From a virus, in IMG/VR virus record IMGVR_UViG_3300042861_001127, positions 1 through 47,281 of that record: a stretch of DNA of 47,281 nucleotides; one strand, written 5' to 3'. This document shows, piece by piece, positions 4,349 to 47,281 of the stretch. Numbering within the stretch: the stretch's first letter is position 1; every line of letters starts with the position of its first letter. The notes beneath the pieces are model-generated. The model made no database searches. It had not been told where the DNA came from and saw nothing but the letters and a program-made list of their open reading frames with translations. The position numbers and the translations under genes were made by a program.

Positions 4349-5126
4349 CTTTGAGGATCCAGGTGGGTGACTGAATGATCTGGGTTGAATCGCCGTTGTA
4401 CCCGGGCCAGCTGTCGGTGTCTTCGCAGACCATCCACTGACGGACCCACGACTGCCAAACGGCCGATGCCTTGTCGAGGGACTCGGTGTCCAGCTGGTAC
4501 ACAGCGACCGCATAGGGCGCCACGTCTTCGACGCAGACCCACTGCCAGGCACGGGTCTCACCGGTGATGTCCCGGTACAGGTCCCGGTAGTAGGCGGCCT
4601 GAACGTCGTAGCGCAGCTGGCCAATCTGCCGGCGAAACCCGGCCTTGCTAGCATCTCGGCACTTCTTGAGATCCACGATCACCGGCATGGACGTGGGCAG
4701 CCAGTCGATCAGGCCTTTGCGTTCGCAGGACTCGAACTCACCGAACATACCCACCTGGGCCTTGCCGGGCTCGGCGAAGATCCGGCCGGCGACCGGGTGT
4801 TGGCGCACGGACTCAACCATGCGTTCGACGGTCTCGATGGCGTCGTGCTTGAACACGGTGACGCCCCGCTCGGTCTGCTCATCGCGCCAGGCGCGTGCCT
4901 CCTTAGTGCGGTAGTCGTCGTATGGAGACGTGGTCCAGAGGTACGGCGTCCCGAGGACCTTGTGATCCAGCAGGCTGCCGATAGCCATGGCTTCGGTTGG
5001 CTCCTTCTCTTCCTCGAAGCCTACCATGGCGTGCAGCGCAGAGCGGGAGAACGCCTTGAGGCTGGAGATGTTGATCGCAGGGTGGCTGCGGTAGGTGTTT
5101 ACGTCGATTGGGTGGACCAGCTTCAC
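4332..5126 (-). CDS. RecE-like PDDEXK exonuclease (putative exodeoxyribonuclease VIII type)
   Basis: 264 aa. It belongs to the PDDEXK nuclease family that partners RecT in phages. Visible signatures are GSLLDHKVL (residues 50-58), Asp141 in GLIDWL, D-x-K at 152-154 in VIVDLKKC, and QAAYYRDLY (176-184), the helix that usually follows the active site. It would digest one strand of duplex DNA from ends to give a single-stranded tail for RecT. ATGA overlap with recT indicates joint translation. It is shorter than E. coli RecE but normal for phage versions. The family often has Lys-Thr-Thr after the catalytic Lys; here it is Lys-Cys. Confidence 0.85.
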   Translation of the reverse strand: MKLVHPIDVNTYRSHPAINISSLKAFSRSALHAMVGFEEEKEPTEAMAIGSLLDHKVLGTPYLWTTSPYDDYRTKEARAWRDEQTERGVTVFKHDAIETVERMVESVRQHPVAGRIFAEPGKAQVGMFGEFESCERKGLIDWLPTSMPVIVDLKKCRDASKAGFRRQIGQLRYDVQAAYYRDLYRDITGETRAWQWVCVEDVAPYAVAVYQLDTESLDKASAVWQSWVRQWMVCEDTDSWPGYNGDSTQIIQSPTWILKDETHP

Positions 5127-12100: not shown

Positions 12101-15100
12101 TTCAGCTGTGTCGTTGATCTTGGCCAGTTCCTCACGGGCCTTCGTGGCGGTTCTGCGCACCTTTACGGTTTCGCCGGTAGATGCCAGGTAATCGACATTG
12201 CTGTTCGTTACATACGGCCGAATGCTCGTCTCTCCGATCGCCGGAAGATCCCGGCCGGCCATGTCAGAATACAGAGTGGGCTTGGCAGTGATGAACACCG
12301 GAGTAAGCCCATTCAGACGGGCATACCGCAACACGGCAGCCACAGTGCGGCCCTTACCCACACCGGTCTGATCTGAGTTAATTAACGCCGAACCGCGTTC
12401 GATGTTTCGGATTGCTAATCCAGCAGCGTCAATCTGCGCGGCTGACATCGTCTTAAACAGCTGGTCCTTGGTCATTTGCAGCCGGTTGGCGACGTACTCG
12501 TCGATCGGCATCTTGACCTCGGCCTCCAATTCGCGGAGGGCGCGTTCGGTGGCGTCTGCGATGTTTGAGGGGCTGACCAACCCGGTCTCCGCGTTCTTGC
12601 TCTGGCTCTTGTAGGGCTTGGTCCGAGCCTCGGACATCACCTCCGGCTCTGCATCTGTTTCGGGCTCGACTGGGATTTCGGGCTCCGTCGGCACCGTGGC
12701 TTGGTCGATGGCATCAATGACGCCGGTGGCCTGGGTTCGATTGAGATCATCCAACCCTTCGACGGTGTTGGCGGTCTCCTGCCAGATGGCCAGAAGCGAT
12801 CGCTTGAGCTTGTCCCAGATTTCAGGGAGATCAGCGCGCACCTGCGAAGCGAATTCGGCAAACGTGCGGATGCCGGCCTTCACGTACAACGCAGCCATGC
12901 GGGCGCCGATCACGATGATCTCGGGATCAACGCCCATGCCGACGCCGCCGAGCTTCTCGCGCAGCTGCTTCTTCAGCGCCTCCAGTTGCGCCTGATCTTC
13001 CGTCGATAGCTTTGCCGTTAGTCCGGGCCTTGCGGTAGGCGGGTTAACCACAGGTTCAGGCCGTCCACCCGCCACGACTCCAGCTGCTCCTGGTTGTTGG
13101 ACTGCGGCCGCTGGCTCAACCACTGGTCCAGCTGCCGTCGGTTCACTTGGAGCAACAGGTCGTTGTTCTTGAACACTTGGTACAACTGGTCCGGGTCCAG
13201 GAACAGGCTGCTCGACAGGTGTAGGTTCTGCCCGCTGTCCTTGAGGTACGATTTCAGGACGCGCAGGCGCTCCTGGAACGCCTCCGGGTTGTTCTCCACC
13301 TCCTGCAACTGCTGGCTCCACAGCTGGGAGATTTCCGACGCCAGTTGCTGCTGGTGTGACAGGGGTTGTGACTTTCGGTTTGCGAGCTTCATTGATCAGC
13401 GGTTTGAGTTGTGCCCAGCTGTTGTAAACGCGAGGTGCTGAAATCCACGGACGAACCAATCCCCCTTGGGCAGCGGGAGGGGTTGATCGTTTTCCGTCGA
13501 TTACCACAATATCAACCGGCCATCCCGCACCCATCTTGGAGTACATTCCCCCGTCGATGGTGAAGAAGTCGGTAACATTGAACCGATTAAACAGGTCAAG
13601 GTACTCAGCCCGTTCGTAGGATTTGAGCCGGTTTTCTGGAGTTCCCAACTTGTTGGACTGCGATCCAGTCTTGGATCCTAAGATCAGCACGGCCTTTCCG
13701 TTGGGGGCCATGGCTTCGAGCGTGTTCAGCGCAATAGCAAGGTCGATGCTCGATGTCTGCGCCCGCTTGATGCTGCTCCTGAAAAGCGGGAACGACTCTT
13801 TCTGGCCTTCGATGAATCGAGCGCCAAACGGAGGGTTGATAATAACGCGATCCGGCTGAGCCGAATCCAGTGAGTTGAAGAACTCCTGGCTCACCGCATC
13901 GAGCCCGGTCGCAGGCTTGCCGATGAAACGCTCCAAGCGGGTGCGGCGATTCGGGTCCAACTCGTTGGCAAGAATGTCCTGCTTGGTCGGATCCGACGTG
14001 ACCAGAAGCATTCCGTTGCCAGCAGTCGTCTCGGCCACGCGTTGACCTCCCTCTACATCCGCCAGAATGCCAGCCAGATAGGCCAGGGGCGGCGGGGTCG
14101 AGTAGGCCTGCGCAGTTTTGCTGGACGCAGTGCGAGTCCCTAACTGCGGCTGCTCCTCGTACCGTTGAGTTAACTTATCGTAGGTCTCGTTTGGATCCAC
14201 TCCGGCCGAGCGGTCTTCACGAACGGTCTGGGCCGTTGCCTCAACAATCTGCGATTCGAGTTCTTCTTCGGCCGCTTTCTTGGTCGGCTCAACCAGCTTA
14301 GGTGCAGGAACCGGGGTCGGTTCGGCAGGGGGAAGCGCAGACGCCGCTGGAGAGATTTCCTCCGGAGGACGGATTAGCTCTTCTGGTACGATCGGCGCTT
14401 GGGTTTCGGTTCTTGCTCCTTCGGGAGGTCGCCCTCCTTTATCCACTTCTGGCAGTCCCACTTGGACTTCGGGTTGCGGCTCTTCTCCGCGAAGCAGGCC
14501 TTCATCTGGGCCTTGTTCTTGAACGGCACTGGGTGTGAGGGGTTGGGGTTCGGGTTGTACGGTCGCTTCAGTTACAATTGGTGCAATCGGCTCCGCCGGC
14601 GGCGCAATAGCCTCCTCAACAGCGGCAGAGATCGTGGGCTCAGGCTGGATCCGAATCGGACCAGACGGCGGACCTCCGGCGTTGATGCCACCAAGCTCTT
14701 CTGCAATGTCAGGAGTAAGCTCATCTTCGATCCCAGCCACGGTGGCGTTAGCACGCGGTAGAGGATTCGTAGGATCACCTCCAAGCGATTCAGCCGCAGC
14801 ATTGGCTAGTTTGGCATTAGGCCGTGAACCAACGAGACCGCCGACAATTCCTCCAGATGCGGCCCCAATGAATCCAGCTTGAGCTACACCATCGAGCCAC
14901 CCGCGTTCCGGATCGTACACTGCTGCGGCAGCAATGTTTCCACCGAACTGCTCAGCTGACTCTTGGACGCCCTCGGTTGCTAGCGCTTCTACCGCGCCTC
15001 GGACACGTTCGGCGCCAGTAACCCCAAGGAACTTCCTTTGGAACTTGGCAGACTGAGGAACCAACCTCTCGGCAAGTCTTTCCCCGATGCCTCCGATTCG

Positions 15101-15874
15101 GCCGGTGACAAAACGCTTGGCTACCTTAGGCGCTGCGCCCAGCAAGCCCTCGGTGACAGCGCCAATGGGAGCGGTTGTGGCGAATGCCAGATTCTTTTTC
15201 TGCTCGCGGCGGTCTTGAAGATCCGCAGCGAGATCGTACTGCTGGTTGGCTAGCGCCTCAGCAATACGACGGTTGATCGTAGCATCAGCCTCTTCGGCTG
15301 CTGACTCACCTGATTGAAGTCCGTAAGAGATGGCGGCCCCCAAGGGAGCGGCCGGACCAGCAATTACCGCAGCTGGAAGTGTAGAAACCGTGCTTCCGAT
15401 ACCGCCCATGATTTGAGCGGGAATCGACTCTCGGACGCCAGGGAGGCCAGGATAGGTTTCCTTTCCAAACTCTTGGACGGCCTGGCCAGCGCGGTAAAGC
15501 GGCTCCTGTTCCAAGGGCACTTCGGCAGTCTGCTCAATCTTCCTTCCGGTGTACGGGTTGACCGTTGGCGGAGGAAGAAAAGTGGCAACACGGGCTGCTC
15601 CCTTGAGGGTTCCTCCAATTCCTTCCAACGCCCCACGCGGCAACTCGGAAAGAGTGTTGAGCACGGTCTCGACCGTGCCGAACTCACCAGCGCGGAACTT
15701 GGCTGCTTCCAGCTGCTCAGTTTCGCCAGCCATTTCTTGCTGACGTCGCTGGATTAAATTCTTCCGAATTTGATCCCGGTTTTGCTTTACGAAGTCGAAA
15801 GCCTGTTCTTGGGTGTAATCTTCTGGGAAAACTACGGTTCCAAGCTCCGTTCCAAAATCGACTTCGATGGGCAT
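6173..15874 (-). CDS. Giant polyvalent ejection protein with DNA methyltransferase and Strawberry-notch-type helicase domains
   Basis: 3233 aa, one fifth of the genome. The start MPIEVDFGTELG is followed by an Ala/Gly-rich region with hydrophobic patches (to about 350) and a Pro-rich linker. An N6-adenine methyltransferase follows, with a SAM-binding ETTAGNGMLL near residue 615 and catalytic NPPF near 678. A second Pro-rich linker follows. The SF2 helicase of the Strawberry-notch class has GVGKGRTVAAVL near 1170, DEAH near 1313 and MLGRIMRFGQ near 1690. The long C-terminal half is helical, with LAFLRFAANATN near 2875 and a hydrophobic segment near 2930. The architecture resembles DarB of phage P1. 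It sits last in the tail operon, where T7-like phages encode gp16, so it is probably packaged and ejected. No break or frameshift seen. Confidence 0.88.
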   Translation of the reverse strand: MPIEVDFGTELGTVVFPEDYTQEQAFDFVKQNRDQIRKNLIQRRQQEMAGETEQLEAAKFRAGEFGTVETVLNTLSELPRGALEGIGGTLKGAARVATFLPPPTVNPYTGRKIEQTAEVPLEQEPLYRAGQAVQEFGKETYPGLPGVRESIPAQIMGGIGSTVSTLPAAVIAGPAAPLGAAISYGLQSGESAAEEADATINRRIAEALANQQYDLAADLQDRREQKKNLAFATTAPIGAVTEGLLGAAPKVAKRFVTGRIGGIGERLAERLVPQSAKFQRKFLGVTGAERVRGAVEALATEGVQESAEQFGGNIAAAAVYDPERGWLDGVAQAGFIGAASGGIVGGLVGSRPNAKLANAAAESLGGDPTNPLPRANATVAGIEDELTPDIAEELGGINAGGPPSGPIRIQPEPTISAAVEEAIAPPAEPIAPIVTEATVQPEPQPLTPSAVQEQGPDEGLLRGEEPQPEVQVGLPEVDKGGRPPEGARTETQAPIVPEELIRPPEEISPAASALPPAEPTPVPAPKLVEPTKKAAEEELESQIVEATAQTVREDRSAGVDPNETYDKLTQRYEEQPQLGTRTASSKTAQAYSTPPPLAYLAGILADVEGGQRVAETTAGNGMLLVTSDPTKQDILANELDPNRRTRLERFIGKPATGLDAVSQEFFNSLDSAQPDRVIINPPFGARFIEGQKESFPLFRSSIKRAQTSSIDLAIALNTLEAMAPNGKAVLILGSKTGSQSNKLGTPENRLKSYERAEYLDLFNRFNVTDFFTIDGGMYSKMGAGWPVDIVVIDGKRSTPPAAQGGLVRPWISAPRVYNSWAQLKPLINEARKPKVTTPVTPAATGVGNLPAVEPAVAGGGEQPGGVPGAPARPEIVPQGQRAEPTPVEQPVPGPGPVVPSVQEQRPVAPSEPTAAGPVVEPAAAVQQPGAAGVVAGGRPEPVVNPPTARPGLTAKLSTEDQAQLEALKKQLREKLGGVGMGVDPEIIVIGARMAALYVKAGIRTFAEFASQVRADLPEIWDKLKRSLLAIWQETANTVEGLDDLNRTQATGVIDAIDQATVPTEPEIPVEPETDAEPEVMSEARTKPYKSQSKNAETGLVSPSNIADATERALRELEAEVKMPIDEYVANRLQMTKDQLFKTMSAAQIDAAGLAIRNIERGSALINSDQTGVGKGRTVAAVLRYARLNGLTPVFITAKPTLYSDMAGRDLPAIGETSIRPYVTNSNVDYLASTGETVKVRRTATKAREELAKINDTAELPAGSNAFFTTYDQLKADVPQGFKEVAKQRRQRQSKRVAKPFGPIWQALSRIAPNAIFVLDEAHLAAGANSDTNIRFDQVLPKSKGAYFASATFAKRPDNLGLYALKTLMQRAGLRPTEMTELLDSGGLALQQALTSMLAESGEFVRREQNWGGVPFDFVTSTDNAERERELADVYTDFLQQILRFSKKVSKVAKKMENAENQTRASEEKVSVSSTNFGSQLFNLSTQYILSLKAKAIADNAIQTLKGNEKPFIAINNTMEGPIETLKEEGYDVSYKGLLLRQLDKLLEVTVRDKAADTKTTIKITPDELPDDARQQYEDIRDEIEGGDFGDMPISPIDFIKNRIQQAGYSIDEITGRNTEIVTTPDGKATSVPRKKRDRRVVLDDFNNGRLDAILVNKSGSTGTSAHTDPKFKDQRRRVMIVGQAAPDINDFMQMLGRIMRFGQTSLPRYVVLSSSLAAENRFMVLLRRKMASLNANTSADTESDLTANEGLVADIFNSIGDDVVYNVLKSNPEIVDQMDFSLPPLEEGIDEGGDFARSATGYFVILPDDYAAKLWRDISELYTDRIRALDEVGENPLKANVDDLRAKTVESSEFTPGTGTTPFDGPSVMERVSIKPPKAPPTYEAATEEAAKNRATTKAIAEGWIKQSRAFEQQRVAAMEAKEVTPAQIQSVKDAFEETRQMVISAYQKIGRAFKNQFGYVAVPIGLKLKSNDPGNFTRPSDHQLLLMRNMVRSRASMPLSMSEGAEGASSLGEQVSNAAEEWQTTTETTDQRYVVTGNLLKGFQGARGASEVRPKITIYTTNTGKRKTGILMPANFTPERKVKDIRVPREEAISLLRGGTEIFAKGESEGAKAAELLRIKPLGGGKYEVRIRAGNALRPVWSNPSVQRLFPDNLVQKGSFLVGTMDAADAPSLMSLAEQINPDLGRLMYDKVENLLNRAIQATRPQGSYESTAAIPLAVINLALRAARAVYIKTRDIVQARQAAIQYVRENAPANTDFAAAEVEIGQLIEGAFETPGTGAFEQREVQPPRAAAGQRRRPSAGFFQGRIVRETNAERKAAAREWVDQYGDDIEEAFTAATGGNRATQFGITPALQQTILGELIERTAARVQASFRNPIDQQRWVYLLRKIGEVAAQSGAQDFGQSGQARRAMISDIDYLTPTLTYYNLINERQKEIPFPEVSSDQIRRWLLDASKRAIANIRSTLSIADNVVSRELKQARRELGVSWEDIMTSSLDKQGNYKRILLDVISEHPILRTLSRAGQIELANLLGNAFEKERNKIVREEFKKQVKLPEVKEKVRKKIYDSIPNIIKWANLGLLTNPEAAADAFRNAIAPKFGVAQINGETAQKISDMAQRAQRTGGTARNKIIQEMYQLMQREGGIRARNIIMDYWYGSVLSGLTTAVEQGTGIINSMINAGLASVQSPTAAPYIASAWLDGMRRSFKDVPAIFARGEMFRGINFDPERPTSTLEALKDSDNMALKAISNLRFVSRFMDAMDHVAVTSNYEAMKAWIIARGGDTKQIREFLIPDASDVQLAREKAESEGLPAERVNQRVREILEARIPSEILIDAKELARQAAFKQDPTGIVGLFYQWLNQAEKKYPGVKMVTGLAFLRFAANATNSSIDWLPWGFTRYYMSNSSRINKPFGYQISDNERKLLLMKASIGTALMAMAGALFLGDDDKEEDRNIDITGSYRSLDPDKKRQLLAQGRQPYSIRIGDKFISYRQMPFAMGLAAIGELRDHQLHNPKEWNRDAILGKFKDAAQAGMFVLTDSPAISAFTELVGMTNAYKYNADDLVNKDLSRWAGRLAGSFIPNILKQVDTYFDPQYYQAKLGSEYFLQQVPMLRRDIGAGPMVNVLGEPVEMMKHPFSRWIKTRKDDPAWNTLATLSERGVFLPSPSAAAKVSENGTRRQMTPEEFYRYQREVGQQYREYVLRKGPQLLAVTPDQAIRVISQDTERIRARIREKIDRSVR

Positions 15875-23536: not shown

Positions 23537-25591
23537 TTAGGCGGATAGGAGCGGGCAGGCGACGCGACTGAGGTCACCGTAAATATCCTCCTGAAGGCGT
23601 TGAGCAACCATTGCCACGCGCTTGAGGCGGAACCGGCCCGTGTTGACGTAGCGGAGTTGGAACTCATAGCCGTCTCGAGTGAACCCGCCGGTTTGGATGT
23701 CGCATTTGTCGGGCGGCTGCGGCAATGCAATGCGCGAGCGGGCGGCCGGCTGGTAATACTTCACCTCCTGGCAGTTGATCACCGCTGGAGGGCAGCTGAT
23801 TTCACCGGGCTCGCAGTTGCGGTACTTCGCGCAATCCTTGAACTCCGCCCACGGCTGCCAGCACTCACCCTCGTTGGCCTTGAAGTAGACCTTGGATTCG
23901 ATCGAACCCATAACCTGGTCATACCACTGCTCGGCGCTCACCAGGCGCTTCTTGTTCGCCGGCTCGGCAAACGTCAGCGACCGCGTCTCGATCACCCAAT
24001 CGATCGGCGCATCATCGAACCCATCGAAGTCGAACTGGCCGTTCTTGGTAATCTCGTACAACCCGATATCGCCCTGGTTCAACCCGAACGCAAAGCATCG
24101 ATCGGAGTTCTGGATCCGGATCGTCAGGAACTGAAAGAAATCCACCCCGGTCCAGACGCCTTCCCAGGCGGGAGCCACCTTCCGGCCCATGCCGGAGACC
24201 AGATCGAAGTCCAGCACGACGGCGCCGCCATGCACGATGCCACGGCCGTTGACCTTTTTCGGCTGCGTGGTCATCAACATCCGGTTGTCGAAGTTCACCG
24301 CGCTGGCTGCGTAGAGATAGAACTCGGTGTCGTATGCCAGCGCCCTGACAACCTGCCGGCTGACCGGGGTGTTGCCCCACTCGGTGAAGTCGCGCCTGGC
24401 GTAGATCAATGATCGGATGCCGTCCTGAGCGCGGAAGAACAGATCGCCGTTCACCGCCACGATGGATTCATGGTTGAACGATCCGAAGTTCAGCAGCGCG
24501 AACCGCTGAATCGGATAGTTCAGGTCCTTCCACGCATCGCGATCGACCGGGGCGTTGAAGGCGTAGGTGGCCGTCGGGGTGAACACCAGCAGGTCGCCGT
24601 CACCCAGAGACGTGTCGAGGTTGGCTGCGAACGCCAGTCCGGTGATCGGGCCGTTGCTCACCGCAAACGCGCCGCCCTCGGCCAGGAAAGTGTTCTCGGT
24701 GAATCGAATCACCGAATCACGACCGTATGCCGGGTCTCCGTAGACCAGGTCGCCGCCGTAATATTCTGAGCCGTTCGCCACCCAGAGGCGCCCCTTGCCG
24801 TAGGCCATCGGGCCGCCAGTCGGTACTTCATCGCCCGTGGCCCTGCGAATCGTCGCACCGTTGTAGAGGTAGGGAACATTGATGGTGTCCTGCACGACCA
24901 ACCAGTTCTCGGCCTGCTGGAAGTAGACGTGCGGCGCCTGCGGGTTGTTCGCCAACATCTGGTAGCCGATGAACAGAGGACCCAGCAGCGGACCGGCGTC
25001 GATCCCAGGCGAGTAACAGGTGAACGTGGTCGGTGACGGCACCGAGTCCACAACGAAGTCGCCGAAGAACCCGGTCGGGAAAAATGCGCCAACGGGCTCC
25101 GGGAGTCGCACGACCATGCCGGGCGAAAGGCCGTGCGGCGCGCTGCACACATAGGTGGCGACGTTGCTGGCACGGCCGCGAGTCAGAACGGTGAACTGAA
25201 ATCCGATCGGAGTCTGGTCGGTGACCTTGAAACCGTTCTGGATGTCGATCTGGTAGACCTTGCCGCTGATCGACGCGAACAGGTACGGAGCGCCAGAATC
25301 GGAAACGTAGGTGCCGCAGCCCTGAAAGAATCCGTTCAGAAACGAGTCACGGACGGCGCGGTTGTAGTATCCGCCCTGGTAGACCACATCCGGATCATCG
25401 AACGTCAGGCCCTTCACCCAGATCCCCGGGCGCGCCTTGGGAAACCCGCCGCGCACCGTCGTGTTCACCGCCCAGGCCAGCTGGTTCGGCTGAATGAGCG
25501 AAGGCGAAAAACCGCTGTCTACCCCGCCCTCGGCGGTGAGTAGGCCGTCTACAATGCGATTTTTTTCGGCGACCATGACGCTTGAAGCCAT
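23537..25591 (-). CDS. Tail tubular B-like (beta-propeller) tail protein
   Basis: 684 aa from ATG 25591 (MASSVMVAEKN); a TTG at 25618 is an alternative. The N-terminus LIQPNQLAWAVNTTVRGGFP and NRAVRDSFLNGFFQ, followed by repeated blades (GKVYQIDIQNG, QQAENWLVVQD, GKGRLWVANGSEYYGGDL, GDLLVFTPTATYAF) fit the propeller-type tail nozzle seen in many podoviruses. Residues about 142-200 carry one copy of the repeat module of the neighbouring spike. Near the C-terminus there are seven Cys between ECWQPW and INCQEVKYY. It is first in the tail operon, 28 bp from the divergent terminase start. Confidence 0.8.
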   Translation of the reverse strand: MASSVMVAEKNRIVDGLLTAEGGVDSGFSPSLIQPNQLAWAVNTTVRGGFPKARPGIWVKGLTFDDPDVVYQGGYYNRAVRDSFLNGFFQGCGTYVSDSGAPYLFASISGKVYQIDIQNGFKVTDQTPIGFQFTVLTRGRASNVATYVCSAPHGLSPGMVVRLPEPVGAFFPTGFFGDFVVDSVPSPTTFTCYSPGIDAGPLLGPLFIGYQMLANNPQAPHVYFQQAENWLVVQDTINVPYLYNGATIRRATGDEVPTGGPMAYGKGRLWVANGSEYYGGDLVYGDPAYGRDSVIRFTENTFLAEGGAFAVSNGPITGLAFAANLDTSLGDGDLLVFTPTATYAFNAPVDRDAWKDLNYPIQRFALLNFGSFNHESIVAVNGDLFFRAQDGIRSLIYARRDFTEWGNTPVSRQVVRALAYDTEFYLYAASAVNFDNRMLMTTQPKKVNGRGIVHGGAVVLDFDLVSGMGRKVAPAWEGVWTGVDFFQFLTIRIQNSDRCFAFGLNQGDIGLYEITKNGQFDFDGFDDAPIDWVIETRSLTFAEPANKKRLVSAEQWYDQVMGSIESKVYFKANEGECWQPWAEFKDCAKYRNCEPGEISCPPAVINCQEVKYYQPAARSRIALPQPPDKCDIQTGGFTRDGYEFQLRYVNTGRFRLKRVAMVAQRLQEDIYGDLSRVACPLLSA

Positions 25592-25619
25592 TGAAAGGCC
25601 AACCCATGATTCCCGCAAG

Positions 25620-27392
25620 ATGAATGAAAGCCCCGATTACCTGTCTATCCCGTGGCGTACAAAAGACCGCTTTCTGATCGAGGCTGAGATGGTGCGCCGT
25701 GGCGGGTACATCATGTCCGGCGGGGTGAAGTACGGGTGCGGCAAGTATCATCACTTCCGCCAGGCCATGACGGCTCTCTGGCCGCACTTCGACTGGCACG
25801 ACTGGTCGGAGCTTCTGATCCGCACGTTCGTCGAGAATCAGGAGGTCGGAATCATGGGCCCTGGTTCATCGGGCAAGACATACGATTCAGCCGCGTTCGG
25901 GCTATGCTCGTTCTACATCTACCCCACCGGGACATCGATCATCATGTCGTCAACGACGCGTGAGGGTCTCCAGCTGCGAATCTGGGGATCGATCAAGGAG
26001 CTTCACAACAAGGCCAAGGCGAAACGCGAGTGGCTCCCGGGGCGCGTGATCGAGAGCCGATTCATCCTGACCAGTTCGGATGAAGATGCCGAGGCGCAGG
26101 ACTTCCGTGATGGCATCATCGGTGTGGCGTGCAAGGTCGGTGGCACGTTCGTGGGTCTGTCGAACTACGTCGGCTTAAAGAACGATCGCGTCATGTTGAT
26201 CGCGGATGAAGCGTCGCTGATGGGGCGCGGCTTTCTGGATTCAGTCGCCAACCTCCGCAAGAACCCGGTGTTCAAGCTGATCGCGATGGGCAACCCCAAG
26301 GACCGCAACGACGCGCTGGGCGTGGTCTGCGAGCCTCACCCGTCGATCGGCGGATGGGAAGGCCTTGAGTACCTCGAAAAGACGCGCACCTGGAGAACGC
26401 GGGCACCCGGTGGTGTGGCTGTCCAGCTGTGTGGATACGACACGCCGAACGCGAAGTTCCCGAAGGGCACCAACCCGTACAAGGGCATCATCACGCCGGA
26501 GCAGATTCAGGCGGACCTCGATTACTACGGCCGCGACTCGTTGCAGTTCTCGATGATGAACCTAGGGCTCCTGCCCCGGGACGGCGGCACCAGGCGCGTG
26601 GTCACCATGTCTCTGTGCGAGCAGAACCAAGCGTTCGACGACCCCGTGTGGGAACGCTCTGACAAGCTGACCAGGATCATCGGTATCGACGCGGCGTACT
26701 CGGGCGTCGGCGGCGATCGCTGCGTAATGACTGACCTGACCTTCGGGCCAGATTCGTCGGGGCGCATCGTGCTAGCATTCAGCGAGGCTCCGATCGTTAT
26801 TCCGGTCACGGCCATCAAAGCCCAGCAGGCCGAGGAGCAGATTGCCGAGTACGTCCTGCTGTACTGCAAGCAGCGCAACATCCCGCCGGAGCGCGTGGGG
26901 TTTGACTCAACGGGACGCGGCACGCTGATGTCGGCGTTCGCCCGCCTGTGGTCACCAGAGGTTGTGCCGATCGAGTTCGGCGGTAAGCCCAGTGACCGCC
27001 CGGTGCGCAAGGGCGATCCAAAGACTGAACGCGAAGCCTACGGCAAGATGGTTACCGCGCTGTGGTACTCGTCGCGCCTGCTGATCGAATCCAAGCAGCT
27101 ACGGAAACTGCCCCGCGAAGTGGCCGAGGAAGGCGCGATGCGCGAGTGGGGAATCGCACGTACCGGGTTGATTGACGTTGAGCCCAAGAACAAGACCAAG
27201 GAGCGCATGGGCCGGTCGCCTGACCTCTGGGATTCGTTCGTCGTTGCGCTCGAAATGGCACGCAGAACGGGTTTTGAGATTGCAGGCGGGCAGGGTGTTG
27301 GTATTGTCAAGCGACAGACACCAAAGTGGCTGACACGTCTGTCAGATAAGCGTCGCACGATGGAGTCTGAACACGCATTAACTTATTCCTGA
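25620..27392 (+). CDS. terL: Terminase large subunit
   Basis: 590 aa from ATG 25620 (MNESPDYLSIPWRTK); an earlier ATG at 25577 would overlap the divergent gene. ATPase motifs: Walker A GPGSSGKT at residue 80 and Walker B VMLIADEAS at 191. Nuclease acidic triad motifs: GIDAAYSG (355), GFDSTGRG (427) and SPDLWDSFVVAL (535). It cuts concatemers and drives DNA into the prohead through the portal. The linker TRRVVTMSLCEQN joins the two domains as in other TerL. No small terminase subunit is seen next to it. Confidence 0.95.
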   Translation: MNESPDYLSIPWRTKDRFLIEAEMVRRGGYIMSGGVKYGCGKYHHFRQAMTALWPHFDWHDWSELLIRTFVENQEVGIMGPGSSGKTYDSAAFGLCSFYIYPTGTSIIMSSTTREGLQLRIWGSIKELHNKAKAKREWLPGRVIESRFILTSSDEDAEAQDFRDGIIGVACKVGGTFVGLSNYVGLKNDRVMLIADEASLMGRGFLDSVANLRKNPVFKLIAMGNPKDRNDALGVVCEPHPSIGGWEGLEYLEKTRTWRTRAPGGVAVQLCGYDTPNAKFPKGTNPYKGIITPEQIQADLDYYGRDSLQFSMMNLGLLPRDGGTRRVVTMSLCEQNQAFDDPVWERSDKLTRIIGIDAAYSGVGGDRCVMTDLTFGPDSSGRIVLAFSEAPIVIPVTAIKAQQAEEQIAEYVLLYCKQRNIPPERVGFDSTGRGTLMSAFARLWSPEVVPIEFGGKPSDRPVRKGDPKTEREAYGKMVTALWYSSRLLIESKQLRKLPREVAEEGAMREWGIARTGLIDVEPKNKTKERMGRSPDLWDSFVVALEMARRTGFEIAGGQGVGIVKRQTPKWLTRLSDKRRTMESEHALTYS

Positions 27393-27393
27393 T

Positions 27394-27792
27394 ATGGCCT
27401 CATTCAATCAAGTCATCCTGATCGGCAACCTCATCAAAGACCCAGAAGTCAAAACGCTCCCCAAGGGGACCACTGTTTGCGCTTTTGGCCTGGCATCAAA
27501 CCGCCGCTGGAAAAGTGAATCCGGTGAGGACAAGGAAGAGGTTTTCTTCGCTAACTGCAAAGCGTTCGGAAAGTCCGCTGACTCGATTGGTAAATACGTC
27601 AAGAAGGGTGACCCGCTGATGGTCACCGGCCGGCTGACCACTGAAAAGTGGACCTCCAAGGATGGCCAGGAGAAGTCATCGACCCGGATCGTGGTCGAGC
27701 AGTTCCAGTTTCTGAAGAGCCGTGATGCTGCGGCGCCAAAGCCTGCCGCTGCCCCGAAGCCTGATCTGGACGCGGACGACCTACCGTTCTAA
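27394..27792 (+). CDS. ssb: Single-stranded DNA-binding protein
   Basis: 132 aa. OB-fold SSB signature: MASFNQVILIGNLIKDPEVK, FFANCKAFGKSADSIGKYVK, GRLTTEKWTSKDGQEKSSTR. A short Pro/Ala/Lys linker leads to the acidic tip DADDLPF, which in SSBs recruits partner proteins. It starts 1 bp after the terL stop, so it is co-expressed with packaging genes. That is an odd place for a replication protein; it may protect single strands or bring partners to DNA ends. The RecT linker could contact its tip (inference). Confidence 0.93.
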   Translation: MASFNQVILIGNLIKDPEVKTLPKGTTVCAFGLASNRRWKSESGEDKEEVFFANCKAFGKSADSIGKYVKKGDPLMVTGRLTTEKWTSKDGQEKSSTRIVVEQFQFLKSRDAAAPKPAAAPKPDLDADDLPF

Positions 27793-37624: not shown

Positions 37625-37816
37625 CTACCGCTTCTTCTTGATGTCAACGGGTTTCTGCATCCACTCCGACCGCTCGTTCTCGCACCGTAAAACGTGATCC
37701 TCGATGGCTATGATCAGCACCGCAGTTTTCGTCCGGCGCGATCGGATCGCTTCCTCCTCCAGCATCTTGGCGACCTCGATTGGCAGGCGGTAACTCACGC
37801 GAATTGTATTCTTCAT
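37625..37816 (-). CDS. Ribbon-helix-helix regulator (CopG/Arc-like)
   Basis: 63 aa. IRVSYRLPIEVAKMLEEEAI, then RSRRTKTAVLIIAIEDHVLR fits the beta-strand and two-helix fold that binds operators as dimers. It lies alone between the capsid operon and the divergent helicase operon, with a CTTGAC-AC-GTCAAG palindrome 22 bases before its start. It is a good candidate for controlling both divergent units. Confidence 0.75.
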   Translation of the reverse strand: MKNTIRVSYRLPIEVAKMLEEEAIRSRRTKTAVLIIAIEDHVLRCENERSEWMQKPVDIKKKR

Positions 37817-37837
37817 GGCCGCAGTGTGTGGCTTATG

Positions 37838-37851
37838 CTTGACACGTCAAG
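37838..37851. promoter_or_regulatory. Palindromic TTGACA-type element between divergent genes
   Basis: CTTGACACGTCAAG has 6-bp arms with a 2-bp centre. It provides a TTGACA on the plus strand (towards the SF2 helicase) and a TTGACG on the minus strand (towards the RHH gene). It may be a bidirectional -35 region or the operator of the adjacent RHH protein. A -10 is not obvious in either direction. Confidence 0.55.
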
Positions 37852-37886
37852 CTGGAGAACGCAGCCTACGGCTCACGCTCATATCT

Positions 37887-39260
37887 ATGAACCTCCGTCC
37901 ATACCAGGACCGCCTGGCGAACGATATCCGATCAGCCTTCGCATCTGGAGCACGCAGGCCCCTCGCCGTGAGCCCCACCGGTTCCGGCAAGACCGTGCTC
38001 TTCAGCTACATCACCTCCCAGGTCCTCAAGCGTGGCGCCCGGGTTGTCATCGTCGCTCACCGCCGCGAGATCCTCGATCAGATCAGCGGCACGCTGTCCA
38101 AGGTATCGGTCCCGCACGGGTTCATCCAGGCCGGCAAACCCATGTCCAAACAGCCGGCCATGGTCGCCTCGATCCAAACTCTCGGTCGGCGCCTGGATCA
38201 GGTCACCACTCCTGACCTCGTTATCATCGACGAGGCGCATCACTCGGTCTCCAAATCCTACGTGGAGATGTTCGCCCGATGGCCCGAAGCCAAGTTCATC
38301 GGCGTCACGGCCACCCCAGAGCGCCTGGATGGCAAGGGCCTCGGAACCATGTTCGACCGCATGGTCATGGGGCCATCCGTCCAGTGGCTTATCGACAACG
38401 GATTCCTGGCCAAGCCGGTCTACTACGCGCCCAAGCACACTCCAGACCTGTCCAGCGTATCCAAGGTCGCCGGTGACTTCGATCGCGCCGAGACCGAGGA
38501 GATCATCGACACCCCACGCATCACCGGTGACGCGGTGACGCACTACCGCAAGTTCTGCCCGAATCAGCGGGCGGTTGTGTTCTGCATCTCCGTGGCCCAT
38601 GCCCAACACGTCGCTGATCAGTTCTGCGCAGCTGGTGTTCCTGCTGCTAGCATCGACGGGACGCTGGATCCCGATGTCCGCAGCAAGCGGGTCGAGGACC
38701 TGACGGCCGGCAAGATTTTGGTCCTGACCAGCTGCGAACTCATCTCCGAGGGATTCGATCTGCCGGCCGTCAACGCCGCCATCCTGCTGCGGCCCACACA
38801 CTCGCTGTCCATGCACCTCCAGCAGCTGGGGCGTGCGCTCCGGCCGTTCCCAGGGAAGACCCACGCGACGATCCTGGATCACGTCGGCAACTGCCTGCGT
38901 CACGGCCTGGCTGAGCAGGAACGCGCCTGGGACCTCGAAGGCCGCGAGAAGCGCAAGAAGAAGTCCACGCCCGTCGAAACCAAGCAGTGCTCCAAGTGCT
39001 TCGCGATCTTCGCTGGCACGGCGTGCCCGCAGTGTGGCCAGGAACGTGAGGTCACCGTCCGCGAAGTCGAGCAGGTCGATGGCGAGCTTCAGCGCCTGTC
39101 GATCGAAGACATCGCGGCCAAGCGCGAGGAGCGGCGCGAGGAAGGAAAGTGCCGTACCCTCGAAGATTTCCGTGCCCTTGCCGCACGGCGTGGCTACAAA
39201 CCCGGCTGGGCTTACTTCCGATGGCAGGCCCGTTCTCGCAAAATCAGCCACCTCGTATGA
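37887..39260 (+). CDS. SF2 DEAD/DEAH-box helicase
   Basis: 457 aa from ATG 37887 (MNLRPYQDRLANDI). Motif I SPTGSGKT (28-35), motif II VIIDEAHHS (112-120), motif III GVTATPERLDG (138), motif V-like TSCELISEGFDLPAV and motif VI QQLGRALRPFPG (near 310). A zinc ribbon CSKC...CPQCG follows at about 367-385, then a C-terminal helical tail FRALAARRGYKPGWAYFRWQ. ATP-driven unwinding or branch processing for replication and recombination. It starts the replication operon and couples by ATGA to the VRR nuclease. Confidence 0.9.
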   Translation: MNLRPYQDRLANDIRSAFASGARRPLAVSPTGSGKTVLFSYITSQVLKRGARVVIVAHRREILDQISGTLSKVSVPHGFIQAGKPMSKQPAMVASIQTLGRRLDQVTTPDLVIIDEAHHSVSKSYVEMFARWPEAKFIGVTATPERLDGKGLGTMFDRMVMGPSVQWLIDNGFLAKPVYYAPKHTPDLSSVSKVAGDFDRAETEEIIDTPRITGDAVTHYRKFCPNQRAVVFCISVAHAQHVADQFCAAGVPAASIDGTLDPDVRSKRVEDLTAGKILVLTSCELISEGFDLPAVNAAILLRPTHSLSMHLQQLGRALRPFPGKTHATILDHVGNCLRHGLAEQERAWDLEGREKRKKKSTPVETKQCSKCFAIFAGTACPQCGQEREVTVREVEQVDGELQRLSIEDIAAKREERREEGKCRTLEDFRALAARRGYKPGWAYFRWQARSRKISHLV

Positions 39261-39628
39261 CCGAATCCGAACTCCAATCCTTAATCCTCCGCGCAGCTGG
39301 ATCAAAACCGCACGTCCGCGTATTCCGCAACCAGGTGGGCGAGGGCTACGTCGGAAAAGCCCTCCGCGATCCGGAAGGCGTCTTCCTACGCGACGCTCGC
39401 CACGTCCGCATGGGATTATTCCCGGGCTCTGGAGACCTGATCGGCTGGCGAACGGTTACAGTCACACCCGACATGGTCGGCAAACCTATCGCCCAGTTCC
39501 TCTCCATCGAAGTCAAGACACCCACCGGACGCATCCGGCCTGACCAGACCAACTGGCTTGAGCAGGTTAACCTTCACGGCGGCCACGCGATTATCGCACG
39601 CTCAGTTTCCGACACCGACAACCTATGA
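39257..39628 (+). CDS. VRR-NUC nuclease
   Basis: 123 aa from ATG 39257 (ATGA overlap). Residues TESELQSLILRAAG, VRVFRNQVGEGYVG, GLFPGSGDLIGW, FLSIEVKTPTGRI and QTNWLEQVNLHGGHAIIARS form the complete VRR-NUC domain. Active-site residues are D in GSGD and E-x-K in IEVKT. Stand-alone phage VRR nucleases probably cut branched DNA; pairing with the helicase suggests Holliday- or flap-processing. Confidence 0.88.
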   Translation: MTESELQSLILRAAGSKPHVRVFRNQVGEGYVGKALRDPEGVFLRDARHVRMGLFPGSGDLIGWRTVTVTPDMVGKPIAQFLSIEVKTPTGRIRPDQTNWLEQVNLHGGHAIIARSVSDTDNL

Positions 39629-39816
39629 ACCCGCAACTACGCGCCGATACCATCACGCAGGCGCTCCAACGCACAGCCCCATCCAACCTGTCCCCAGAGG
39701 CCACCTACCGCTACTACGAGCGCCTGGGTATCATGTGCGGGGCAGCGGATCCAACGCCGGAGCAGCATCGGCAGGCCCTACTGGAAGCACGCGAGTACGA
39801 TCTCAATAACGACTAA
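39625..39816 (+). CDS. Small hypothetical protein, 63 aa
   Basis: ATGA overlap with the nuclease gene, then 20 bp to the primase gene. Helical: RADTITQALQRTAPSNLSPE, ATYRYYERLGIMCGAADPTP, EQHRQALLEAREYDLNND. No known motif. Being fixed within a replication operon, it may be a helper of the primase-helicase. Confidence 0.7.
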   Translation: MNPQLRADTITQALQRTAPSNLSPEATYRYYERLGIMCGAADPTPEQHRQALLEAREYDLNND

Positions 39817-39836
39817 CCTCACCCCTCACTACAAGC

Positions 39837-42050
39837 ATGACCCTCCCCGAACTCTCGGACGCCCTCTCCGTCCGGGTCGCAGAACTCTGCGCTCAACTCC
39901 TCCCCGCCGGCCGCCAGGTCGGCTCCCAGTGGATCGTCGGCAACGTCTTCGGCGACGCCGGCGACTCCCTGTACGTCGAACTCACCGGCCCCAAGCAGGG
40001 CCTGTGGTACGACCACGCCGCTGGCAACGGTGGCGATCTCCTCGAACTCATCGGCCAGAATCAAACCCTCCCGAAGGGCCGCGCCGCCCAGTGGGCACGC
40101 GAATTCCTCGGTATCCGCGACGATTACCAGCCCGAACCCCGCCGATTCGATCCCCTCAAGCACGGCCACCGCGCCGACGCCTCCCAGCCGTACCGCTACG
40201 GCTCCGCCGCCTGGCCCTATCCCGACGCCGACGGCACCATCCGGGCCTACGTCGTCCGATTCGACCTCCCCGACGGCTCCAAGGACGTCCGCCCCCTCCG
40301 GTTCCTCCCGCCCGATAACCAACCCCCTGACCTCCTCAACCCCCGCCACTGGCGCTGGAAGGGCTGGACCTCACCGGAGTCCGTCCCCCTCTTCAACCTC
40401 CACCTTCTGGACCGGCGCCCGAACGACCCTGTCCTCATCGTAGAGGGCGAGAAAACCGCCGTCGCAGCATCCAAGCTCTTTCCGTCCCACGTCGTCATCA
40501 CCTGGCAGGGCGGCTCCAAGCGCGTCGCCCGTGCCGCTATCGACCCTCTCCTGACCCGAGCCACCCCGATCGTCCTGTGGCCCGACGCCGACAAACCCGG
40601 CCGGGACGCCATGGTCTACCTAAAAGCCCGCCTGCCGTCCGCCAAACTCGTTCACCTCCCAGACACGCTCCCCGAAGGCTGGGACCTCGCCGATCCAATC
40701 CCAGCTGACGTATCCATCCAGGGCCTCCTCGACGCCGCTGGCGATCCACCACGCCCGGTTCCGGCTGCACCGCTCCCTGCCAGCCCCAACCCGCTCGACG
40801 ACCTCCACTACGATCCGAACTCCGGCCAGTGGTGGACCCGCAACTCATGGGGCGATTACGCCCAGATCAACGGCGAGCGCGTCCGAACCCTCTTCACCGA
40901 GTCCGGCGTCTCCCCCACGAAGGACCAGACCGGCGCCTCCGACGTCGATCGCGAACTCCTGCGCCGTACCCGGGACACCCGGATCCGCTACGCCGGCTCC
41001 GTCGCCGGCCACCAGGCAGGCCTCTACGACAAGGTCCTCGTCACCGAATCCGTCGCACCCCTGCCGGCCGTCCCCGGCGACTGCGCCCGTCTCCAGACCT
41101 ACCTCCACAACCTCCTCGACCAGAACGACGACCAGTACTGGCGCCTCATCTTCTGGCTCGCGCTCCGTCGGCAGGCCGTCCTGACAGGCACCTGGAGAGC
41201 ATCGCAGGCGCTGGCGCTGGTCGGTCCCGCCGCGTGCGGCAAGTCCTTCGTGCAGGCCCAGGTCATCACCAAACTCCTCGGTGGCCGCATCGCCAAGCCC
41301 TACCGCTATATGTCCGGCGCCACGGAGTTCAACGGCGACCTCTTCGCCGCTGAGCACCTCTGCATCTCCGACGAGGCCCCTGGCCGCGATATCCACTCCC
41401 GGCGCTCCCTCGGTTCTCACATCAAATCCATGCTGTTCGACATCGACCAGTCCTGCCACCCCAAGAACCGCCAGGCCATCACCCTCCGCCCCATCTGGGC
41501 CATGTCCATCTCCCTCAACGACGAGCCCGAGAACCTCCAGGTCCTCCCGCCACTCGACCCGTCCCTCATGGACAAACTCATTATCCTCCGCTGCGTCCGC
41601 CATACCCTCCCCTGGCCAGGCCCCGAAATCCAAGTCCTCCGCGAGATCATCGACACCGAACTCTCCCAGTTCGCCCACTACCTCGACGGCCTCACCGTCC
41701 CTGAGCACCTGGTGGAACCACGCTGCGGCCTCAAGGCTTACCAGCACCCGGCCATCCTCGAAGAACTCATGCAGCTGTCGCCAGAGCACCAACTCATCGG
41801 CCTCATCGACACCGCCATTTTCGAGAACGAATTCCTCACCTGGAGAGGTACGGCTGCTGACCTGGAAACCGTTCTACGTGACTCGAAGTATTCCCGGGAG
41901 GCCGACCGGCTCTTCCGGTTCAACACCGCGTGCGGCGTCTACCTAGCGCGCCTGCATGAGCAGGATCCGGAGCGGTTCAAGAGGACCAAGTCGAAAAACA
42001 AGATCCGATGGGCGATTACGCCGCCGCAGAAGAGCGAAATGATGGATTAA
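39837..42050 (+). CDS. Primase-helicase (TOPRIM-like and SF3-type ATPase)
   Basis: 737 aa. The N-terminus WYDHAAGNGGDLLELIG (about 57-73) is like the start of phage primases. Then comes the TOPRIM region VLIVEGEKTAVAA (about 198) and IVLWPDADKPGRD (about 242). After a Pro-rich linker (about 300-325) comes an ATPase domain with GPAACGKS (462-469) and HLCISDEAPG (505-515), and LDPSLMDKLIILRC as a likely sensor region. It should make primers and unwind at the fork. No polymerase gene follows. The G-tract region starts directly after its stop. Confidence 0.85.
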   Translation: MTLPELSDALSVRVAELCAQLLPAGRQVGSQWIVGNVFGDAGDSLYVELTGPKQGLWYDHAAGNGGDLLELIGQNQTLPKGRAAQWAREFLGIRDDYQPEPRRFDPLKHGHRADASQPYRYGSAAWPYPDADGTIRAYVVRFDLPDGSKDVRPLRFLPPDNQPPDLLNPRHWRWKGWTSPESVPLFNLHLLDRRPNDPVLIVEGEKTAVAASKLFPSHVVITWQGGSKRVARAAIDPLLTRATPIVLWPDADKPGRDAMVYLKARLPSAKLVHLPDTLPEGWDLADPIPADVSIQGLLDAAGDPPRPVPAAPLPASPNPLDDLHYDPNSGQWWTRNSWGDYAQINGERVRTLFTESGVSPTKDQTGASDVDRELLRRTRDTRIRYAGSVAGHQAGLYDKVLVTESVAPLPAVPGDCARLQTYLHNLLDQNDDQYWRLIFWLALRRQAVLTGTWRASQALALVGPAACGKSFVQAQVITKLLGGRIAKPYRYMSGATEFNGDLFAAEHLCISDEAPGRDIHSRRSLGSHIKSMLFDIDQSCHPKNRQAITLRPIWAMSISLNDEPENLQVLPPLDPSLMDKLIILRCVRHTLPWPGPEIQVLREIIDTELSQFAHYLDGLTVPEHLVEPRCGLKAYQHPAILEELMQLSPEHQLIGLIDTAIFENEFLTWRGTAADLETVLRDSKYSREADRLFRFNTACGVYLARLHEQDPERFKRTKSKNKIRWAITPPQKSEMMD

Positions 42051-42080
42051 GACGGGGGTGGGGGTGGGGAGTGCATGGGT

Positions 42081-42114
42081 GGGGGTGGGAGGTTTTCGTA
42101 GACCCCCCACCCCC
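42081..42114. repeat. G-tract inverted repeat 1
   Basis: Arms GGGGGTGGGAGG and CCCCCCACCCCC, one mismatch, loop of 10 bases. It could act as a strong transcript end hairpin for the primase operon, although there is no T run, or as an origin structure. Confidence 0.75.
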
Positions 42115-42218
42115 GTTCGGACCCCGATAAACATTGGGTCAAATGAATGTTTTGGAGTCAGGGGGTGGGGGGTGAGGGGGTGGTAGGAAAATTGATGGAC
42201 TGGCCGGCTGGAGAAGCT

Positions 42219-42249
42219 GAGCGGACGGAGCGCAGCTGGAGCGGACGGA
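42219..42249 (+). repeat. Tandem GAGCGGACGGA direct repeats
   Basis: GAGCGGACGGA at 42219-42229 and 42239-42249, spaced 20 bp (about two helical turns), with a partial third copy (GGAGCGGAA) from about 42258. Possible initiator-binding iterons. Confidence 0.6.
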
Positions 42250-42348
42250 ACAGTGGCGGAGCGGAACCGTTAAGGTTGGTTATAGCCCCTAACCCCCTAC
42301 CCTAAAGAGTAAAATATGAAGAAAGGCCAATGAAATGGGGTCAAAAAC

Positions 42349-42393
42349 GGGGGTGGGGGGTACAGCGATACCCCTATTCGACCCCCCACCCCC
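42349..42393. repeat. G-tract inverted repeat 2
   Basis: Perfect 12-bp arms GGGGGTGGGGGG and CCCCCCACCCCC around a 21-base loop. Nearly the same arm sequence as repeat 1, 268 bp away in the same orientation. Confidence 0.8.
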
Positions 42394-42587
42394 TAAGTGG
42401 CACCCCCTACCCCAGGGCGTAGAGCGGTTTATGATGGTTTGGAAAGTGGGCTAGGTATTTGGGAGGGGGTACCGTTGTGGCCTGCCGTCGAGCGCGGCCC
42501 CCACCCACCCTACCCCGTGGGGACGGTACGGCCCGTAAGGAATCCATTATGGGTCCCGCAGGTCAGGCACAGCCGTCGAGGGTGGCG

Positions 42588-42944
42588 TCAGTCTAGGTTA
42601 GGCAGGGATGGGGAGGAGCCGACCAAGGTTGCTGGCGAGATGTCGATGGGGATGGAGGCCTTGCCTCTGCCAGCTGAGCCAGCCGGTCGTCGCGGTATGG
42701 CAAGCAGGTCCATGAGTTGGTCTTGGAGGGAGACCATGGCTTTTGCGGCGGAGATCCGATCGTTGGCAGGTGCAGTCGTGTCTTCCACAAGGTCAGCCAT
42801 CCGCTCAGCCGATCGACGCAGCCGCAGGACCATCTGTCCGGGAAGAGAAGCCCTTGCCAGACTCAATACCACCTCACTCCTCGCAGCCCTCCGCGACAGG
42901 CTTTTCCCGTCAGTCGCAGGGTATGACTTCTCCATGTACGGCAT
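42588..42944 (-). CDS. Lone minus-strand hypothetical protein, 118 aa
   Basis: The start at ATG 42944 is uncertain (GTG 42950 and ATG 42935 are possible; none has a clear Shine-Dalgarno). It is mostly helical: SRRAARSEVVLSLARASLPG, QMVLRLRRSAERMADLVEDT, NDRISAAKAMVSLQDQLMDL. Its size, helical repeats and acidic patch are compatible with a small terminase subunit, which is otherwise missing, or a regulator. It is the only gene here read against both neighbours. Confidence 0.6.
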   Translation of the reverse strand: MPYMEKSYPATDGKSLSRRAARSEVVLSLARASLPGQMVLRLRRSAERMADLVEDTTAPANDRISAAKAMVSLQDQLMDLLAIPRRPAGSAGRGKASIPIDISPATLVGSSPSLPNLD

Positions 42945-42950
42945 GACCAC

Positions 42951-43059
42951 ACAATGCGATTTCCGACAGCGATTTCAACCAATGTTTACGGGCCTGCGAT
43001 CAAGGTCCTGAAAAAGAGGTGTTGACACGTAAAGCGGTTTATGAGATCGTGTCCACCGT
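42951..43059. promoter_or_regulatory. Divergent promoter region before the early plus operon
   Basis: The plus strand has TTGACACGTAAAGC at 43022-43035, almost the same as TTGACACGTCAAGC at 37839-37852. AGCGGTTTATGA at 43033-43044 is an exact copy of 42423-42434. These are likely promoter or operator parts for the early operon starting at 43060. Confidence 0.55.
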
Positions 43060-46700: not shown

Positions 46701-46897
46701 CCCGGAAGGTGACCATTGAGATCACGGACGCAGACGGCGGGTTTCACCTGTCGATCGACGTGCAGCCGCCACTGCCTGAGCATGGAACCGTGCCTGAGCC
46801 GTCTGCCGCGCTGATCGCTGGCATGGTAGCGCGGCGTGCGATCGAGCAGCTGGTGGCGCAGCAGCAGGTTGATGGAGGTCAGTGTGACGCGAATTGA
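46697..46897 (+). CDS. Small hypothetical protein, 66 aa
   Basis: ATG 46697 with GGGAGG upstream. VTIEITDADGGFHLSIDVQP, then ALIAGMVARRAIEQLVAQQQ. A strand pair followed by a helix. It overlaps the HU-like gene by 14 bp, so the two are likely translated together. Function unknown. Confidence 0.7.
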   Translation: MTRKVTIEITDADGGFHLSIDVQPPLPEHGTVPEPSAALIAGMVARRAIEQLVAQQQVDGGQCDAN

Positions 46898-47186
46898 GAT
46901 CGCCAGACGCGTGTCCGACGAGTGCGGCCTGCTGGTGCCCCACGCTCAACAGGTCGTGGACTGCGTGCTTGACCTGATGACTGAGCAGGTCCTGAAAGGA
47001 GAGCTATTGCTGCCTGATTTCGGGAAGTTCGAGGTCAAGTGGACAGCTCAGAGAATCGGCCGGAACCCGCTGATCCCGGATGTCGATATCCCGATCCCGC
47101 CGAGGCCGAAGGTGTACTTCAAACCGTCGAAGGAACTAGCCGATCGGGTGATTAAAACACTTGCGGTTGGGTCATCCAAGAAGTAG
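46884..47186 (+). CDS. HU/IHF-like DNA-binding protein
   Basis: 100 aa. GTG 46884 is chosen because GGAGG lies 5 bases upstream; ATG 46872 would put that site inside the gene. IARRVSDECGLLVPHAQQVV, then LLLPDFGKFEVKWTAQRIGR, GRNP (59-62) and KVYFKPSKEL give the complete HU/IHF fold, including the R-x-GRNP arm start. The arm is shorter and Pro-rich (IPDVDIPIPP). It bends or coats DNA, perhaps at the origin or for packaging. Last gene of the early operon, followed by a strong terminator. Confidence 0.88.
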   Translation: MTRIEIARRVSDECGLLVPHAQQVVDCVLDLMTEQVLKGELLLPDFGKFEVKWTAQRIGRNPLIPDVDIPIPPRPKVYFKPSKELADRVIKTLAVGSSKK

Positions 47187-47281
47187 GATACCACCGCTTG
47201 TAGTGCTGTTCATAGTTGTCGAGCCCCTGGGATTGTGAGGTCCCGGGGGCTTTTTGTTTGCGGCGGAGACCGCGGGGGGGG
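47155..47281. repeat. Second copy of the 127-bp terminal repeat
   Basis: Exact copy of bases 1-127. Removing one copy gives a unique length of 47,154 bp and joins the plus-strand early operon directly to the region before the minus-strand operon that ends at 218. Confidence 0.9.
47222..47259 (+). terminator. Intrinsic terminator after the HU-like gene (second copy in the repeat)
   Basis: Same 11-bp stem and T-rich tail as at 68-105, seen in its natural position just downstream of the HU-like gene stop at 47186. Confidence 0.9.

Follow-up and report, generated by a model that had tools for sequence, protein, structure and literature searches.

A large inverted repeat behind the primase-helicase gene as a candidate replication origin in a clade of uncultivated phages

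Introduction

The replication origins of iteron plasmids combine short repeated motifs, set in a head-to-tail array, with an AT-rich patch. To our knowledge, few uncultivated phages have an origin with experimental support. For the Sulfolobus plasmid pRN1, a 100-nt stem-loop situated 3' of the initiator gene is described as required for replication, and a similar stem-loop is predicted behind the initiator gene of Bordetella phage BIP-1 (PMC4234260). As described there, the initiators of both elements carry an SF3 helicase and a C-terminal winged helix, and the authors of the pRN1 study propose a scheme of winged-helix binding, ring assembly, melting and bidirectional forks (PMC4234260). The same account presents the alpha protein of satellite phage P4 as a Toprim-type primase and a helicase with a winged-helix domain that binds origin repeats (PMC4234260).

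Here we examine a region behind a primase-helicase gene in IMGVR_UViG_3300042861_001127, a 47,281-base phage record analysed over its whole length and referred to below as the window. An earlier note had picked out positions 42051–42587 as a structure-based origin candidate, with two short inverted repeats, an AT-rich patch and G-rich runs that could form G-quadruplexes. From sequence comparisons we conclude that this region is probably the replication origin of the phage, or at least the site at which its initiator assembles, and we put the probability of this reading at roughly 0.6.

Results

Bases 1–127 of the record are identical to bases 47155–47281, so that the assembly is probably circular or circularly permuted. 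The end repeats of relatives are 101, 123 or 127 bases long, lengths that are typical of assembly k-mers, and for this reason we regard circular assembly as probable and do not take the repeats as true termini. Comparison at the DNA level with named phages gave no match to the window, and among the 15 protein matches listed the named phages are about 27–32% identical over at most 40% of the primase. A primase scan of IMG/VR gave 29 loci with protein identities of at most 95%. The region analyses described below have 21 rows, namely the window and 20 of these loci; those left out are L018, which stops before the anchor, L022, L023 and L028–L030, which are cut in or near the primase, and the near-duplicates L006 (of L025), L021 (of L019) and L024 (of L014). 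Whole-genome tests used 13 records, eight with end repeats and five without, all treated as circles. The contig of L007 is 92,531 bases long, about twice the usual length, and has one element match.

Wider scans added little to this set. A scan for distant relatives with the primase alignment gave 30 loci, 28 of them on contigs already in the set and two weak and new (L122 and L123), and a scan with the element pattern gave 22 contigs, of which 21 were in the set and one was new (L079). An exact piece of the window's G tract, scanned for in the same way, matched 0 contigs. In a genome collection, close relatives were found in three metagenome-assembled bins labelled Akkermansiaceae, Aquidulcis and Actinomycetota, labels that disagree on the host, together with two weak Legionella matches. 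The relatives form one tight clade (primase 83–95% identical among 16 aligned relatives), and the rows of the counts given below are therefore non-independent. The named phages Mica and AcaML1, in which the primase N-terminus is distantly related, have no comparable annotated gap behind the gene, so that nothing generalises beyond the present clade yet.

The window encodes a RecT protein (5123–6130, − strand), a PDDEXK-type protein (4332–5126, −), the large terminase subunit (25494–27392, +), an SSB (27394–27792, +), a DEAD/RadD-like helicase (37815–39260, +) and an HU-like protein (46836–47186, +); of its proteins that were scanned, none was recognised as a DNA polymerase. A single open reading frame of 3233 codons (6173–15874, −) takes up about one fifth of the genome. 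The protein encoded at 1575–2198 (−) has a helix-turn-helix joined to a sigma-70 region 4 domain and is a candidate phage sigma factor or regulator. The gap between helicase and primase (39261–39836) looks coding by eye and may hold a VRR-NUC-like nuclease. On the far side of the region under study lies a small convergent gene of 120 codons (42588–42950, −), which has the same place in 13 of 13 full genomes; a family search with its product gave no confident family, and at least two quite different sequence versions of it occur among the relatives.

The primase-helicase gene itself (39837–42050, +) encodes 737 amino acids with Toprim-like and DUF5906 helicase-like parts, and we propose its product as the initiator. 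Its Pfam matches are to DUF6371 (3.7e-08), to DUF5906 (5.1e-05, just under the curated cut-off) and to Toprim (0.0023, below the cut-off), and it matches PHROG 239, DNA primase/helicase, at 4.6e-19. The families that it matches are thus Toprim-like and phage primase/helicase families, with no archaeo-eukaryotic primase domain among them, and comparison with solved structures gave no sequence match at E ≤ 1. Of 21 sequences first entered, 17 make up the primase alignment. The full-length model is poor (pLDDT 42). For the 105-residue C terminus (41733–42050, +), AlphaFold2 predicts a winged helix, with helices followed by a two-strand wing (mean pLDDT 72.5, pTM 0.62), from an input of 17 relatives (the C termini of 11 primases and of 6 small genes); this domain is the proposed DNA-binding part. 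VIA with this model gave Z values of at most 7.7 (under 8) to Cdt1 and to many bacterial winged-helix regulators, a level that can reflect a common arrangement, and Foldseek gave no match at E ≤ 0.001.

In each locus that reaches the element, the gene order is primase-helicase, then none to two small genes, then the element, with one or two small genes intervening in 13 of the 20 relatives. Family 1 of these small genes is present at 13 loci (including L018) and family 2 at six. An intervening small gene whose C terminus resembles the primase C-terminal domain is found in 12 of the 20 relatives, and the profile comparison of the family 1 C terminus with that of the primase gave a probability of 82% and an E-value of 1.1e-5 (one comparison, no database). 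The family 2 small gene was also considered as a relative of the primase C terminus and is unsupported in this (probability 13.5%).

As the earlier note had it, the region starts directly after the primase open reading frame, which ends at 42050. Of the two inverted repeats that it had reported, the one at 42349–42393 (the right local hairpin, −) is exact, with 13-nt arms GGGGGTGGGGGGT and ACCCCCCACCCCC separated by 19 nt and followed by GTTTTT on the − strand. The other, at 42081–42114, matches at 12 of 13 positions (92%), and its right arm has a better partner, as 42052–42064 is complementary to 42104–42116 at 13 of 13 positions with 39 nt between them. The left local hairpin is accordingly placed at 42052–42116 (+), and in relatives such as L002, L004 and L017 its arms have other letters with their complementarity kept. 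Within the whole window, exact 11-nt inverted pairs at most 40 nt apart are confined to the region, and their count there is reached by 0 of 300 dinucleotide shuffles.

Both hairpins sit inside one larger imperfect dyad (42055–42413), missed in the earlier note, which local alignment of the region against its own reverse complement brings out. The dyad spans about 360 bases, with 86 of 132 columns identical (65%); its left arm (42055–42179, +; 125 nt) and right arm (42286–42413, −; 128 nt) are separated by 106 nt. It is kept in all but a few of the relatives while its letters change. The centre (42180–42285) holds GGAGCGGACGG repeats (42215–42251) and AACCGTTAA, which is related to GGAACCATTAA in relatives. 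The AT-rich patch that had been reported is present at 42304–42346 (33% GC) and is a candidate unwinding element; the 40-nt stretch from 42297 belongs to the least stable 0.04% of window positions and is the fourth-lowest separate minimum. The abundance of (G)4-6T(G)3-6 runs on both strands likewise holds, with five on the + and two on the − strand of the region as against three and none in the rest of the window. The density of runs of at least four G or C has its window maximum here, at 22 per 500 nt (mean 2.35, sd 2.38), and in each of the 13 genomes it peaks at the element. The long G tracts seen in the window are for the most part lineage-specific, relatives carrying interrupted versions such as GGGTGAGGGT.

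Each arm of the dyad carries a core box, ACCCTCACCCTNCGTTT or a variant of it, in mirror orientation, in which CGTTT is nearly invariant. In the window the left copy (42102–42117, +), the counterpart of ACCCTCACCCTNCGTTT of relatives, is the exact reverse complement of the right copy (42346–42361, −), which reads AACGGGGGTGGGGGGT on the + strand and in most relatives is placed at about −83 from CTAGGTATT, and the boxes are conserved and covary among relatives. Motifs of the GTGAGGG type number 48 where 1.8 are expected and are spread over 16 of 21 regions. A block with fixed spacing (42451–42549) follows to the right of the dyad, made up of CTAGGTATT (42451), GGGGACGG (42519) and AAGGAATCC (42537). 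The spacing from CTAGG to GGGGACGG is 68–69 nt in 22 of 25 sequences examined, and the columns of the block are conserved with a covariation of about zero. An AACG-GGGTGAGG box lies about 83 nt before CTAGGTATT in most genomes where it is found. Just before the block is AGAGCGGTTTATG, an operator-like motif copy (42421–42433, +), and AAAGCGGTTTATG (43031–43043, +) adjoins a TTGACA upstream of the early + strand genes; the AAAGCGNTYTATG motif, palindromic in several relatives, is present at both places. A search of the window for DnaA boxes gave none that has the full consensus.

Whole-genome scanning for pairs of inverted 150-nt segments with 80 nt between them places the strongest long inverted repeat here, 3' of the primase-helicase gene, in 12 of 13 genomes. 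The exception is G005 (L008), which has no clear long dyad and ranks 136 in the scan. In 17 of 21 regions no more than 3 of 100 shuffles attain the self-inverted similarity of the region, and in 16 of 21 the DNA self-fold is lower, on one strand or both, than that of any of 40 shuffles; L010, L015, L016 and L019 are regions in which it is not.

The two arms also change together. With all 21 sequences, 91.0% of cells are paired as against 85.6% after shuffling, and the covariation score is 0.255 as against 0.159, neither being reached in 500 shuffles, whereas sliding the partners by one to three columns gives at most 68.2% paired and a covariation of at most 0.127. Of the five measures, two are less clear-cut, their observed values being reached in 47 and in 68 of 500 shuffles. 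Compensatory changes by which the stem is retained appear both in the first structure count, which used 16 of the 21 rows (without L008, L014, L015, L016 and L027), and in the later count with all 21. RNAalifold independently picks the same long-range stem from the 16-sequence alignment, with changes on both sides at 6 of 17 pairs, and retains 11 stem pairs with all 21 sequences, at a weak energy of −5.6. Arms match better within a genome than across genomes (mean 21.6 vs 16.4; 0 of 5000 permutations), a preference also seen with the 13 less similar loci (0 of 5000), and the individually contrary loci are L008, L007 and L019, for which 18, 14 and 12 other loci match better. These paired changes support a constraint linking the two arms; two co-evolving copies of one protein-binding site, with no stem, could also give rise to them.

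Cumulative GC skew agrees with an origin in one respect and departs from it in another. In all 13 genomes the detrended minimum falls within −494 to +2089 nt of the anchor, and the skew change elsewhere that the earlier note had named as refuting an origin is therefore not seen as far as the minimum is concerned. The maximum, however, is not opposite to the element but 5 to 17 kb to its left, and beyond about 5 kb the skew is no longer strong. The same local turn is seen in all 13. At third codon positions, taken on the coding strand, the helicase and primase genes are C-rich (−0.24 and −0.48), and most + strand genes to the right of the region have a positive skew; in the window, co-oriented genes lie on both sides of the minimum. 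The local turn fits an origin, and a local mutational or codon-usage effect would also fit.

Discussion

The features computed for this locus, that is its position, the dyad and its conservation, the paired changes between the arms, the local skew and the predicted winged-helix fold of the neighbouring gene product, have to be set against other functions that inverted repeats can suggest. The main rival is a pair of inverted transcription terminators, in which the transcripts of the primase-helicase gene and of the small − strand gene would end at GC-rich hairpins followed by CGTTTT. It owes this standing to the convergent genes, between which the region lies in 13 of 13 full genomes, together with the hairpins and the CGTTT behind them, as the left local hairpin stays complementary despite changed letters in several relatives before running into CGTTT and the right unit mirrors it. 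We nevertheless think it unlikely. A scan for terminators finds none between −480 and +120 of the anchor in any of the 13 genomes, and the terminator tool's own scan finds none at 42051–42587. Behind the early genes of the + strand, at 67–105 (and once more in the end repeat), the window has a canonical terminator with a tight hairpin and a T run, which all 13 genomes conserve at 4.6 to 6.4 kb rightward of the anchor; that the scan detects this distant terminator in every genome and none at the region weakens the terminator reading. Moreover, the T run often starts some nucleotides past the stem, with only TT in the left copy of the window, the loops in the window are of at least 19 nt, and the conserved inverted similarity extends far past the T run, which is more than a terminator needs.

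Somewhat less likely again is a regulatory or packaging region, in which the repeats would be arrays of sites for a phage DNA-binding protein (a repressor, a partition or a packaging protein) with no origin. The motif copy at 42421 that is common to the early promoter region at 43031, the repeated GTGAGGG-type motifs and the adjoining convergent gene at 42588–42950 would suit such a role, but over 500 bp separate the region from the early promoter, no small terminase subunit was recognised beside the region (the large subunit being far off at 25494–27392), and both the cumulative skew turn and the link to the primase would be left unexplained. That the block at 42451–42555 encodes a structured RNA seems improbable: in its favour are the invariant blocks, the 68–69 nt spacing in 22 of 25 sequences and a fold energy below that of column shuffles on the + strand (z −5.2, with shuffles that ignore composition blocks), yet covariation is about zero on both strands, and Rfam gave no match to the window at gathering thresholds and weak, chance-like matches at E ≤ 5. 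We give least credence to an origin that depends on G-quadruplexes, as the earlier note had proposed. Candidate motifs do exist at 42054–42089 (+) and 42498–42516 (−), the former not conserved in relatives, but 94 of 500 shuffles do as well as these two. Upstream of the CTAGG block, 5 of 21 homologous regions contain four G3 tracts with loops of at most 7, and each of these five is equalled by 10 or more of 100 shuffles of its own sequence. In L002 and L009 the G arms are replaced by GGGGGTTTTGG, paired with CCAAAACCCC. With the potential confined to 5 of 21 regions, this part of the origin claim fails, and the G-quadruplexes are a by-product of the G-rich form that the arms have in this lineage.

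The origin reading itself is supported by position, by the conserved inverted repeat, by the compensatory changes and by the skew minimum. How it would bind its initiator, melt, prime and direct its forks we infer as follows. The predicted C-terminal winged helix of the primase-helicase may bind both core boxes, which face each other in inverted orientation (...CACCC..CGTTT and its mirror image), and binding in this manner would place two helicase rings in opposite orientation. The helicase would then open the AT-rich patch, or extrude the dyad as hairpins, and the primase part would lay primers. Once exposed, the strands would be coated by the phage SSB, and two forks would be carried away from the site by the replication enzymes of the host or by a phage polymerase that escaped recognition.

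A large covarying dyad, in which symmetry is kept and letters vary, together with small genes related to the winged helix that are swapped between genomes, might represent an exchangeable cassette of initiator and origin, an idea that we offer tentatively and consider doubtful. If true, it would mean that the origin is recognised by its symmetry and a short fixed core (CGTTT), and not by fixed iterons. The arrangement also suggests a sequence rule that could be tested on many viral genomes, namely to look for the strongest long inverted repeat, behind a primase-helicase gene and at the skew minimum.

Like the iteron plasmid origins, the element has short repeated motifs and an AT-rich patch, but its repeats are inverted and form a covarying dyad, with no head-to-tail array. 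The combination of a Toprim-like primase part, a helicase-like part and a predicted winged helix resembles the P4 alpha protein, as far as P4 can be compared by description; the origin of P4 is described in PMC4234260 by its repeats (iterons), whereas here there is a conserved dyad. The likeness to pRN1 and BIP-1, as these are described, lies in a primase and a hexameric-type helicase with a C-terminal winged helix (in our case a helicase-like part and a predicted winged helix) and in a large inverted repeat situated 3' of the gene. In those two systems, however, the primase is archaeo-eukaryotic and here it is Toprim-like; the stem-loop of pRN1 is of about 100 nt, whereas our dyad, which contains nested hairpins and repeated motifs, spans about 360 nt; and the present locus can take up small genes, of which some have a similar C terminus. 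By analogy, then, we hold that the element works like the stem-loop origins proposed for pRN1 and BIP-1, and because it shares their arrangement but has a Toprim-like primase we liken it to them and do not class it with them. This reading would extend the pRN1/BIP-1 stem-loop model to initiators with a bacterial-type primase.
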